This document shows, in pieces, positions 3,751 through 14,333 of a stretch of 39,769 bases of DNA. The stretch covers positions 1 through 39,769 of the forward strand of contig JAJEFO010000076.1 in NCBI GenBank assembly GCA_022820365.1. Reading direction: 5' to 3'. Made by a program: the position numbers and the translations under genes. Positions within the stretch are counted from its first letter, which is position 1. Each line of letters starts with the position of its first letter. This stretch comes from Silicimonas sp. (lineage in GTDB: Bacteria > Pseudomonadota > Alphaproteobacteria > Rhodobacterales > Rhodobacteraceae). Under the pieces are notes generated by a model. That model did no database searches and was not told the origin of the DNA. It saw nothing but the letters and a program-made list of their open reading frames with translations.

Positions 3751-4010
3751 CCAGCGATGCACTTGATCTACTCCGCAACAAGCGCAACTTCGGCACCCGC
3801 CGCCCGACAACGGCCCAAGTTGCCGCGAATCGTGCATGGCACGATGCCTAACGCGCTGACGTCAATCAGCGCGATGATCCGACCTGGATTTCGTTCCTTC
3901 CCCGCATCGCGACATGCATGCCCGAATCATTGGAACAAAGAAAGAAAAAATGCTTCTTGAGACCATTGCTTGCGAAACCCTGCGTTGGCTGCTTGATCAT
4001 GAAGCAGCCA
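3751..4010 (-). repeat. Copy A of a ~255-bp inverted dispersed element; possible structured RNA
   Basis: The reverse complement of this stretch aligns with 14078-14333. The best core is 3781-3894 against 14199-14312: by hand count about 12 differences in 114 positions with no gap. The outer part is weaker but recognisable, for example CATGATCAAGCA and CTTTGTTCCA are shared. Differences are not concentrated at any codon position, so it is not behaving as coding DNA. An 8-bp hairpin (arms CGCGCTGA / TCAGCGCG on the minus strand, 3852-3873) is perfect here. A second hairpin with CGTG/CACG arms around CCATG lies near 3833-3845. The class of element is not recognised. Confidence 0.75.
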
Positions 4011-4029
4011 GAGCGCGCGTTCAGTGCAA

Positions 4030-4057
4030 GACGGGCTCCGCGGGAACGGAGCCCGTC
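4030..4057 (-). terminator. Stem-loop after rpoC, terminator-like
   Basis: A perfect 10-bp GC-rich stem (arms GACGGGCTCC and GGAGCCCGTC) with an 8-nt loop begins 18 nt after the rpoC stop codon. On the minus strand it is followed only by TTGCAC, so the U-tract is poor. It is most likely an intrinsic terminator or a 3'-end stabilising hairpin for rpoBC mRNA. Confidence 0.6.
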
Positions 4058-4075
4058 TCCCTCGTTCGGGCCGAG

Positions 4076-7000
4076 TCAGCTTACGCCCTCCGACGCATCC
4101 ACGAGATTCGATTCCGCCGATTCGCCGACCATGTCCTCGGGCGCCGCAAGCGCTGCCGCCGCTTCCGCCTGGGCTTGGGCCTCCTGAATGAGCTTGTGGT
4201 CGCGGTCAGCCGCGATGCGCCGGGCGCGCTGCGTTGCCCCACCGGTTCCGGCCGGGATCAGCCTGCCGACGATCACGTTCTCCTTCAGGCCGACCAGCTT
4301 GTCGCGCTTGCCTTGCACCGATGCCTCGGTCAATACTCGCGTCGTCTCCTGGAATGATGCCGCGGAGATGAACGAGCGGGTCTGAAGGGACGCCTTCGTG
4401 ATGCCAAGCAGAATCGGTTCGCCGCTTGCGGGACGCCGACCTTCGGCCCTTGCCTTCTCGTTAGCCGCATCCAGCTCACCCTTGTCGATATGCTCGCCCT
4501 TCAGAAGGGTCGTTTCGCCGGAATCCTGGATCTCCCATTTCTGGAGCATCTGGCGAACAATGACCTCGATGTGCTTGTCGTTGATCTTGACGCCCTGAAG
4601 CCGGTAGACGTCCTGCACCTCGTTGATCATGTAGCCCGCCAGTGCCTCGACGCCCAGAATCGACAGGATGTCATGGGGAGCCGGATTGCCGTCCATGATG
4701 TAGTCGCCCTTCTGAACAAAGTCACCTTCCGCCACCGGAATGTGTTTGCCCTTCGGCAACATGTACTCGACCGGCTCAAGACTCTCGTCAACGGGATCGA
4801 TCGAGACTCGACGCTTGTTCTTGTAGTCGCGTCCGAACCTCACGTACCCGTCGATTTCGGCGATGATCGCATGATCCTTCGGGCGCCGTGCCTCGAAGAG
4901 TTCCGCCACCCTCGGCAAGCCGCCGGTAATGTCCTTCGTCTTGGCTCCTTCGCGCGGAATGCGCGCCACGACGTCACCAGCCTTGATCGCGGACCCGTCT
5001 TCGACCGAAAGCACGGCGTCTACCGACATCGGATAGGTGATTTCGTTGCCCAGGCTGTTCTTCACCGGCTTGCCGTTCTTGTCGACGATCAGGATCTCGG
5101 GCTTGAGGTCGCCGCCTTTCGGCGCAGCGCGCCAATCGGTCACGATCTTCTGCGTCATGCCGGTCGCGTCGTCGGTCTCCTCACGCACGGACACGCCCGT
5201 GACGAGGTCCACCAGCTTTGCCGTGCCGACCTCCTCCGCAATGATTGGCAGGGTGTAGGGATCCCATTCGAACAGCTTGTCGCCGCGCTTTACGCTTTCC
5301 CCCTCCTTGGGGAACACCTTGGTGCCGTAGCCCAGCTTGTGCTTCAGCCGTTCGTTCCCGTTCACGTCAAGTACGGCCAGTTCCATGTTGCGTCCGACGA
5401 CGATCTGCTCACCGACGGAGTTCTTGATGATGCTGGCGTTCCTGTACTCGACATCGCCGTCAGCGGAAGATTCGGTGAACGACTGCTGACCACCCTGCGC
5501 AATGCCACCGATGTGGAATGTCCGCATGGTAAGCTGGGTGCCGGGCTCGCCGATCGACTGTGCCGCGATGATGCCGACAGCCTCGCCAATATTGACGAGC
5601 GTACCGCGTGCCAGATCGCGACCATAGCACATGGCGCAGACACCGTCTTCCGAATCGCAGGTCAGCGGCGAGCGGATGCGCACCGACTGGACGGCCGCGG
5701 CTTCAATGGCATCCGCTGTCCTTTCGTCGATCAGCTCTCCCTTCTTCGCCAATGCCTCGTCGGTTCCTGGAACAACCACATCCTCGGCCGCAACGCGACC
5801 GAGCACGCGCTCGGAAATCGACGCCACGATTTCTCCTTCGCTGATCGCCGCCTCCGCCGTGATCGCCGCGTCAGTGCCGCAATCCTGCATCCGGACGATG
5901 CAGTCCTGCGCCACGTCCACGAGACGACGCGTAAGGTAGCCGGAATTCGCCGTCTTGAGCGCGGTGTCGGCAAGGCCCTTTCGCGCTCCGTGGGTCGAGT
6001 TGAAGTACTCGAGCACAGTCAGGCCTTCCTTGAAGTTCGAGATGATGGGCGTCTCGATGATTTCGCCGGAGGGCTTTGCCATCAGGCCGCGCATGCCACC
6101 GAGCTGCTTCATCTGGGCCGGAGAGCCCCGTGCCCCCGAGTGTGACATCATGTAGACCGAATTGGGCTCCACCTCGGCTCCCACATCGTCTTTGCGCATC
6201 GCGGAGATGTCGTCCATCATTGCGTTTGCAACGTCATCCGAACACTTTGACCACGCGTCGACAACCTTGTTGTACTTTTCGCCCTGGGTAATCAGGCCAT
6301 CCATGTACTGCTGCTCGAATTCCTTCACCTGTTCTCGGATGGAGTCGACGATGTTCCACTTGGCGTCTGGAATGGCCATGTCATCCTTGCCAAAGGAGAT
6401 GCCAGCCCTGAACGCCTCGCGGAAACCCATCGTCATGATCTGGTCACAGAAAATGACGCTCTCCTTTTGGCCGCAGTACCGGTAGACGGTGTCGATGACG
6501 TGCTGGACCTCCTTCTTCCGCAAGAGCTGGTTCACCAGGTCGAACGGCGCCTTCGCGTTCAGCGGCAGGAGCGCGCCCAGCTTGACCCGGCCGGGCGTGG
6601 TCTCGTAGCGCTTGAATACCTCAAGCCCGTCCTCGTCGATCTGCTTGATCCGGGCCGTGATCTTCGCATGGAGATGGACTTCGCCTGCGTCGAGGGCATG
6701 CTGCACTTCGTCCGCATCGGCAAAGACCATGCCTTCGCCCTGCATCCCCTCGCGTTCCATCGAGATGTAGTAGAGGCCAAGTATCATGTCCTGGGACGGC
6801 ACAATGATCGGTGCGCCGTTGGCGGGCGACAGCACGTTGTTGGTCGACATCATCAGGACACGCGCTTCCAGCTGGGCCTCGAGCGACAGGGGCACGTGGA
6901 CGGCCATCTGGTCTCCGTCGAAGTCGGCATTGAAAGCCGAGCAGACCAGCGGGTGCAGCTGGATGGCCTTGCCTTCGATCAGGATCGGCTCGAAGGCCTG

Positions 7001-13136: not shown

Positions 13137-13141
13137 TCAGG
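13110..13141 (-). terminator. Weak stem-loop overlapping the ppk2 stop codon
   Basis: An 8-bp inverted repeat (CCTGACGG / CCGTCAGG) with a 16-nt loop straddles the ppk2 stop codon. There is no U-tract, so it is at best a weak terminator or an mRNA 3'-end structure. Confidence 0.25.
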
Positions 13142-14027
13142 GATACGTCGTCGGCACGAGTGTCTGTTCGGAGAATGGTGGCCGGACATAGGCACCGGCA
13201 TCCTCTCGCCTGGGAAGCTCGATCGATTCCGGTGTCAGATCCTCGTAATCCACCATGCTTAGGAGATGGCTGATGCAATTCAGTCGCGCGTGCTTCTTCA
13301 CGTCCGCATCCACGACGTACCAGGGCGCCTGCTTGATGTCCGTGTGCGCGAACATCTCGTCCTTGGCCTTTGAATAGGCAACCCAACGCCGCCGCGATTC
13401 GAGGTCCATCGGGCTCAGTTTCCAGCGCTTGTGACTCTGATGAAGGCGTGCCTGAAACCTCTTCTCCTGCTCCTCGTCCGAGACGGAGAACCAGTACTTG
13501 ATCAGCCTTATGCCGGAACGCACCAGCATGCGTTCGAACTCCGGGCAGGAGCGCATGAAATCGCGATATTCGTCATCGGTGCAGAAATCCATGACCCTTT
13601 CGACGCCTGCCCGGTTGTACCAGCTCCGGTCGAACATAACCATCTCGCCGGCGGCGGGAAGGTGCGGCACGTAGCGCTGAAAATACCATTGGGTCCGCTC
13701 GCGCTCCGTTGGTGCGGGCAGCGCGACTACCCGGCAAATGCGGGGGCTCAGGTGCTGCGTGATCCGTTTGATGACCCCGCCCTTTCCGGCCGCGTCCCTG
13801 CCTTCGAATATGACCACGACCTTGAGCTTCTCGTGCTTGATCCACTCAACCATCTTCACGAGTTCGAGCTGCAGCCGGAACAGCTCGCTTTCGTAATGCT
13901 TGTTACTTATCTTTTTCGGGTTGTCTTCGCGCTGGCCATTCTCGGAACCGGAATTTGCCAAGCCGCCGTTTCCGGTGTCAGTCATGGTCGTGTTCCCGCC
14001 TCTTGCGATCTTCAAGCTGCTAGTCAT
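13137..14027 (-). CDS. ppk2: Polyphosphate kinase 2 (PPK2 family)
   Basis: PPK2 enzymes transfer phosphate between inorganic polyphosphate and nucleoside di- or monophosphates; the single-domain enzymes near 300 residues usually make GTP or ATP from GDP/ADP. The protein has 296 residues. The Walker A motif is FEGRDAAGKGG near residue 73, the Walker B-like segment is FDRSWYNRAGVERV, and the lid region contains QRYVPHLPAAGEM. The long start (14027) gives MTSSLKIARGG; an internal ATG at 13985 (MTDTGNGG) has AAGAGG upstream and is a good alternative. The first 40 or so residues are low complexity and not part of the family. It sits between rplL and rpoB, separated from both by long spacers and a terminator, so it is probably an independent unit. 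Nucleotide preference cannot be read from sequence alone. Confidence 0.93.
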   Translation of the reverse strand: MTSSLKIARGGNTTMTDTGNGGLANSGSENGQREDNPKKISNKHYESELFRLQLELVKMVEWIKHEKLKVVVIFEGRDAAGKGGVIKRITQHLSPRICRVVALPAPTERERTQWYFQRYVPHLPAAGEMVMFDRSWYNRAGVERVMDFCTDDEYRDFMRSCPEFERMLVRSGIRLIKYWFSVSDEEQEKRFQARLHQSHKRWKLSPMDLESRRRWVAYSKAKDEMFAHTDIKQAPWYVVDADVKKHARLNCISHLLSMVDYEDLTPESIELPRREDAGAYVRPPFSEQTLVPTTYP

Positions 14028-14077
14028 CTGATTATGTAGCTTGAACGTAGCGACTAGTCTACTTCCAATGCAATGAG

Positions 14078-14333
14078 CTCGGCTGCATCATGATCAAGCA
14101 ACCAACTCAGCATTTCACAAACAAGAAGATGACAAGATCGTTAATTCTTGCTTTGTTCCATGATCCAGGCATGCATGTAGCGGCATGTCGGGGAAAGGAC
14201 GAAATCCAAGTCGGACCATCGCGCTGATTGACGTTGGCGTGTCAGGCTTCGTGCCATGCACGTTTCACGGCAAGGTGGGCCGTTGTCGGGCGGCGGGTGC
14301 GGAAGTTGCGCTCGTTGCGGAATGAATCAAGTG
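14078..14333 (+). repeat. Copy B of the ~255-bp inverted dispersed element; possible structured RNA
   Basis: This is the partner of 3751-4010, in opposite orientation. The equivalent of the 8-bp hairpin is at 14220-14241: the left arm CGCGCTGA and loop are identical to copy A, while the right arm changed at three places (TCAGCGCG to TTGGCGTG). All three changes convert Watson-Crick pairs into G-U wobbles on this strand, so the helix survives as RNA in this orientation only. It begins about 50 bp from the divergent ppk2 start and points toward the rplL terminator. Confidence 0.75.

Follow-up and report, generated by a model that had tools for sequence, protein, structure and literature searches.

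Two gene-free repeats bracketing rpoC-rpoB-ppk2 in a Silicimonas genome are very probably miniature IS607-type elements

The window studied here, a 39,769-nucleotide stretch of Silicimonas sp. DNA (contig JAJEFO010000076.1), carries two inverted copies of one non-coding sequence on either side of the genes rpoC, rpoB and ppk2. Very probably, this sequence is a non-autonomous element that arose from an IS607-family transposon by internal deletion; it was presumably moved in trans and is by now probably inert. Its copies have the same ends as transposons with tnpA and tnpB found in the same genomes, are dispersed, stand at sites that are empty in relatives and contain paired GCAAC motifs. We see no sign that the polymerase genes play any special part in this. 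The identification explains a previously unrecognised repeat next to essential genes. It also shows a miniature family arising from a serine-transposase insertion sequence, with its ends fixed by empty sites.

Results

Copy 1 (3760-4007, minus strand, 248 bp) lies in the spacer after the rpoC stop, with its left end at 4007 and its right end at 3760, and copy 2 (14083-14333, plus strand, 251 bp) lies in the spacer between rplL and ppk2. A preliminary description of this DNA had taken 3751-4010 (minus) and 14078-14333 (plus) for the same sequence, and gapped local alignment agrees, with 211 of 248 aligned pairs identical (85%), 37 mismatches, 7 gap positions and a score of 282 compared to a maximum of 33 among 500 dinucleotide shuffles. 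The identity figure varies with gap placement, being 78% in a global alignment made with another program and 82% in a multiple alignment. By repeat search of the window, we found two inverted matches, 3760-3904/14189-14333 (145 nt, 88% complementary) and 3966-4009/14081-14124 (44 nt, 84%). The lower similarity that had been described beyond a core is the remainder of a single homologous element with short indels. The borders, which we set from many copies and from empty sites, fall slightly inside those first proposed, and the location of both copies in spacers agrees with neighbouring genes confirmed by Pfam.

Both window copies are separate insertions without target duplication, because relatives show empty sites. 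We predicted each empty site as the window flanks joined by a single TG. First, the rpoC site is empty in G007, where 231 of 231 predicted bases align and 201 are identical, TG included. Second, the ppk2 site is empty in four relatives (G006, G002, G005 and G004), which are 69-75% identical to the predicted site over about 160 bases and in which the junction length, counted by eye, fits one dinucleotide in place of TG. The element is also absent after rpoC in G006, G004, G005, G002 and G003, where the spacers are too different for a base-exact comparison; no rpoC place was obtained for G001, and no ppk2 orthologue for G001, G003 or G007. Target duplication is absent at both window insertions, a result that concerns the window copies and not the parents. 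By eye, the flanks of the copies show no common target sequence.

The preliminary description had also suggested that recombination between the copies would flip rpoBC-ppk2. Inverted copies with 85% identity could indeed let homologous recombination flip the 10-kb rpoC-rpoB-ppk2 segment. However, both flanks of each copy stand together in relatives, so that they are collinear with the window, and the longest exact run common to copy 1 and copy 2 is 25 bp. Since the flanks of each copy adjoin in relatives, the window keeps the ancestral order, and we give almost no credence to an inversion hotspot.

The element is widely dispersed in its own genome (4.71 Mb, 135 contigs), where at least 29 places match copy 2, a lower bound as 40 of 49 candidates were scored. 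Twelve of these places (L001-L012) hold near-full-length copies according to a profile built from 26 copies. Of the two possibilities raised at the outset, a dispersed element or a local RNA gene, the first is therefore the right one. Among 61 genomes searched, all 8 of the genus carry the element and none of the 53 others does, and in an order-wide sample only 1 of 292 genomes, the own genome, has a match (two candidates scored per genome). No viral contig carries the exact 26-base core. TnpB is found at E up to 1e-15 in 2 of 149 genomes of the family, own genome included. Among 24 loci in named records, the parent protein occurs in metagenome-assembled Boseongicola, Silicimonas and similar bacteria and, more distantly, in Salipiger mucosus, Ruegeria atlantica and Parvibaculum indicum. 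We assume that such metagenome-assembled genomes originate from sponges.

Ten further matches in the own genome cover only positions 190-256 of the copy 2 query, that is the 67 bp at its right end (14267-14333, plus strand), with 88-91% identity. As all ten also match tnpB, they are the 3' ends of tnpB genes. Eight of them lie at most 280 bp from a contig end, and three of these eight start at base 105; such crowding is expected because near-identical copies break the assembly. In copy 1, the corresponding 67 bp (3760-3826, minus strand) align to those bases of copy 2 that share homology with the tnpB 3' end plus the parent right end. The tnpB homology was measured on copy 2, on copy L002 and on the consensus, and copy 1 takes part in it only through the alignment. 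A protein match spanning both copies, which had been named as grounds for dropping the non-coding description, is therefore found in part only, the final 67 bp deriving from the tnpB 3' end.

Both ends of the miniature, bp 1-32 and the final 67 bp, correspond to the ends of the parent. The left end recurs about 520 bp upstream of tnpB with 88% identity in the own genome, where nine 1-32 left ends were counted among 23 matches. Between the ends, an internal stretch around GACGAAATCCAAGTC corresponds to the tnpB codons just before the RuvC-I motif (the DEIQV stretch), with a score of 42 that none of 500 shuffles reaches (maximum 31) and an E value of 1e-5 in a separate search. In the miniature consensus and in the C49 parent alike, two GCAAC motifs begin at distances of 16 and 25 bp from the left end, and two inverted ones at these same distances from the right end. 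The right-end pair is present in both window copies as GTTGC twice, 9 bp apart (3775-3788 on the minus strand in copy 1, starting 16 and 25 bp from the end; 14305-14318 on the plus strand in copy 2). From sequence and alignment, the first left-end GCAAC of copy 2 is at 14098-14102 (plus strand); the second left motif (bp 25) is degenerate in copy 2, and both left motifs are degenerate in copy 1.

A second type of right end was also observed, in which the sequence switches after GTTGCGGA to a common stretch, about 100 bp long, that finishes near TGTCAACACTATCGCAACACGGCGCC and is followed by further repeats. It occurs in the miniatures L003, L010, L030, L035, L038 and L039 and in the tnpB 3' ends L025, L027, L057, L066 and L067, with variants in L034, L043, L050 and L147. 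It may represent either another form of the right end or a second repeat that has become fused.

The parent G000:C49 has its left end at 15309-15340, followed by a tnpB match from 15861 onwards and by a right end that closes at 17053; from CTGC to GTG it measures 1,745 bp. The tnpB protein L023, a 446-aa open reading frame (ORF), matches Pfam Cas12f1-like_TNB with 38.8 bits, above the cut-off of 26.3, and NCBIfam guided_TnpB with 69.9 bits, below the cut-off of 100. Among solved sequences, it is closest to the TnpB-like protein L79 (E 9.1e-16, or 1.2e-22 with an 8-sequence profile), which we take to be a mimivirus protein. A TnpB structure model from 8 sequences was poor, with a mean predicted local distance difference test (pLDDT) of 57.1.

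Upstream of tnpB, and overlapping it, the Salipiger relative encodes a TnpA of 183 aa that matches Pfam Resolvase (E 3.4e-13), with only weak, below-cut-off matches for an N-terminal helix-turn-helix. This protein matches the solved transposases 3ilx of ISC1904 (E 9.4e-17), 6dgc of ISC1926 (E 3.2e-16) and 6dgb of IS1535 (E 3.9e-6), its best structural match being 3lhf, labelled only Serine Recombinase. Seven parents of the genus (G004:C30, G004:C39, G003:C89, G004:C74, G007:C64, C49 and C38) have a tnpA homologue between the left end and tnpB, with 42-57% identity over 176-182 aa. It is open over that length in six of the seven and interrupted near its start in G004:C74; the tnpA genes of the RHO1 record (69%) and of Parvibaculum (58%) are interrupted by stops. 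The tnpA product of G004:C30 matches ISC1904 with E 1.9e-7. The IS607 TnpA model NF033518 has matches in all 8 genus genomes, some of which fall outside this element.

These parents bear on whether the miniature could come from a different transposase type, either IS200/IS605 with its Y1 transposase or a DDE transposase. Although tnpB occurs in IS605 elements too and the inverted motifs close to the ends look like imperfect terminal inverted repeats, the parent has a tnpA of the serine-recombinase type between the shared left end and tnpB, and no target duplication is seen at the two empty sites. We therefore consider another transposase type highly improbable.

We also noticed a DPG motif in RuvC-I of the parent TnpB, with a glutamate (NEA.TS.T) six residues ahead of the first zinc-knuckle place. 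Both CxxC knuckles are missing, RSWD replacing the first, in 8 of 8 aligned proteins (L166, L147, L148, L149, L146, L151, L155 and L154, the own copy being L105). According to the available part of a published survey, the combination of DPG and an alternative glutamate is a fingerprint of Fanzors and of mostly cyanobacterial pro-Fanzors, making up less than 1% of TnpB-family homologues (PMC10711439). As the search pattern given in that part requires CxxC, it would miss the TnpB lineage described here.

An RNA family, for which the preliminary description had left room, is not found by Rfam in either copy, even at E up to 5. At the same threshold, the loci L105, L001 and L008 yielded five Rfam matches, all outside the copies, and RAGATH-18, the guide RNA of IS607 TnpB, has no match in parent L105, L001 or L008. 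Folding of the consensus gave weak covariation (term -0.76), with 3 of 30 pairs changed on both sides in the free prediction; the named right-end structure showed no covariation, 0 of its pairs being altered on both sides. Six miniature copies fold about like shuffles (z -1.32 to 0.28). In contrast, the last 138 nt of parent L105 (1917-2054) fold far better than shuffles (z -4.29, reached by 0 of 200), as a guide-RNA scaffold would, an interpretation that is unproven. Neither window spacer contains a sigma-70-like promoter or a terminator pattern.

These tests also bear on whether the two copies are a local non-coding RNA, or a cis-regulatory element, that belongs to the rpo operon and was duplicated to either side. 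Such an element would fit the position of both copies in spacers of a conserved operon region, as well as the better conservation of the right half: differences between copies amount to 16% in columns 116-250 versus 30% in columns 31-115, and a slower right half is likewise seen within shared loci (15.5% versus 23.3%), single pairs disagreeing. However, the element is absent at the same positions in relatives and has its many matches elsewhere in the own genome, and the Rfam, covariation and folding results lend it nothing, so that its probability is close to nil. The empty sites in relatives rule out a local RNA gene.

Finally, some copies might have been exapted and now serve the host as regulatory elements, for instance near ppk2 genes. 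One locus is common to four species and lies about 1 kb from a ppk2 paralogue (miniature G000:C4 21063-21311, in the set L012, L046, L134 and L033), and L012 and L134 are 89% identical over the element, more than over either flank (84 and 80%). Yet no general protection is seen relative to the flanks: over the 9 pairs from four shared loci, element identity is 78-89%, and 14 of 18 flanks are more similar than the element (range 74-97%) against 4 that are less so, in a rough test where flanks extend up to 400 bp and some are probably coding. As promoter and terminator patterns are also missing from both window regions, we see only a slight chance of exaptation. That a miniature lies near a ppk2 paralogue while copy 2 adjoins another ppk2 is possibly a coincidence.

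Discussion

Our results suggest the following scenario. The parent, of about 1,745 bp, consists of a left end, tnpA encoding a serine transposase, an overlapping tnpB encoding a nuclease of the RNA-guided type, and a right end. The miniature has retained the parent left end, a short tnpB piece and the last 67 bp, that is the tnpB 3' end and the right end. TnpA, supplied in trans, may bind the candidate GCAAC motifs and excise the element as a circle, which could then insert at a nearly random site by exchanging strands over a TG dinucleotide. Two such insertions would have given rise to the copies in the window.

IS607 elements make no target duplication, exchange 2 bp, show little target specificity and have short direct motifs near their ends, and their junction dinucleotide is GG in most, not all, members, as far as the available text of two studies goes (PMC6188088, PMC4058570). 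The parent shares a tnpA serine transposase plus tnpB with IS607, IS1535, ISC1904 and ISC1926, and the element shares with the IS607 family the lack of target duplication, the short repeated motifs near the ends and possibly, on the simplest reading, exchange over one dinucleotide. Unlike these relatives, the window copies carry no gene. Also, the motifs here keep equal distances of 16 and 25 bp to either end; in IS607, as described in the available text, the distances differ.

Several observations weigh against a derivation from IS607 or against mobility today. First, the TG, which was read from the element ends, is found at the ppk2 empty site in G005 only, CG standing there in G006 and G004 and GA in G002; moreover, published IS607 junctions have GG in the text available. 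Second, beyond bp 32 the left part of the miniature aligns to the C49 parent no better than shuffles do (112 of 500 as good); the profile nevertheless covers bp 1-108 to 1-130 at six parent loci (E 2e-5 to 7e-4). Third, the TnpA proteins of the genus are hard to recognise: the Resolvase match of G004:C30 is below the cut-off, C49 TnpA reaches only E 0.0017-0.0069 against solved structures and has no Pfam match at E up to 1, and all matches to NF033518 are below its cut-off, the best with 48.7 of 110 bits. Fourth, the ratio of nonsynonymous to synonymous substitution rates (dN/dS) is 0.66-1.41 for whole tnpA and 0.46-1.22 for its first 100 codons versus 0.16-0.40 for tnpB, in 15 pairs of six elements analysed by a simple counting method, with overlapping genes and some interrupted copies. 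Fifth, aligned by eye, the catalytic-serine position reads cysteine (CRVCG) in C38, C65, C121 and G2C167 (loci L106, L117, L119 and L113, C49 being L105). We take this to be the catalytic position of tnpA. Because tnpA looks relaxed and some own-genome copies have cysteine for the catalytic serine, the present mobility of the element is doubtful. In the tnpA of C38, C121 and G2C167, we also noted that DRVTR reads YSVTR.

The age of the copies concerns the same question. The mean identity of 30 aligned copies is 78%, and copies at loci shared across species are almost as diverged as unrelated ones (by region, 16-26% within shared loci and 16-30% between unrelated copies). Taken with the relaxed tnpA, this suggests that activity is now past and that both window copies are probably inert.

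What remains puzzling is that tnpB is constrained and tnpA looks relaxed in the same elements, and that the right end that would encode a guide RNA is retained in gene-free copies. One possible answer is that TnpB keeps the miniatures: a guide RNA from the right end, extending into the host flank, would load parental TnpB, which would cut chromosomes lacking the copy, so that the miniature is restored. If this were true, an IS607 miniature family would form a genome-scattered set of guide RNAs, co-selected with a TnpB that is conserved while the transposase decays. The conserved 67 bp and the constraint on tnpB fit this idea; the folding and covariation tests give it no support. Since the L105 right end folds well but the six miniatures do not, it stays unproven, and we judge it unlikely.

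Gene-free, core-deleted derivatives are known for IS605, namely the PATEs of Haloquadratum walsbyi (PMC3119063). In the available text of that study, PATEs are likewise short and without genes, consist of the fused ends of an insertion sequence that bears tnpB, occur in many copies and make no target duplication; they are of IS605 type with near-terminal palindromes, whereas the element here is very probably of IS607 type and has directly repeated motifs. It also resembles the miniature inverted-repeat transposable elements (MITEs) of classical insertion sequences in being a non-autonomous deletion derivative that needs transposase in trans, and differs from them in having neither long terminal inverted repeats nor target duplication. 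A review of prokaryotic MITEs uses none of the terms IS605, IS200, serine and TnpB (PMC10969869). No IS607-derived miniature family was found in the literature searched, the scope of which leaves out ISfinder and subscription journals. As PATEs are known for IS605 and none were found for IS607, we file the element as a new, IS607-derived family of a known kind.

Additional features of the window

Pfam confirms the genes around the two copies, all on the minus strand: rpoC (4076-8311), rpoB (8395-12534), ppk2 (13137-14027; PPK2, E 1.5e-108) and rplL (14795-15181; L7/L12), and likewise the S7 gene of the window. An ORF without a Pfam family (14327-14791, minus strand) overlaps the final 7 bases of copy 2. 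By eye, we noticed a G+C-rich inverted repeat, GACGGGCTCCG/CGGAGCCCGTC, at 4030-4058, in the gap separating copy 1 from the rpoC stop. This repeat is perhaps the rpoC terminator; a terminator scan requiring a T run does not list it. The sole Rfam match of the window at the gathering threshold is Rhodo-rpoB RNA, upstream of rpoB at 12564-12652 (minus strand; 48 bits versus 33.6). By Pfam, ppk2 lies between rplL and rpoB in the window; from the reading of ORFs, it stands beside rplL at locus L130 too.

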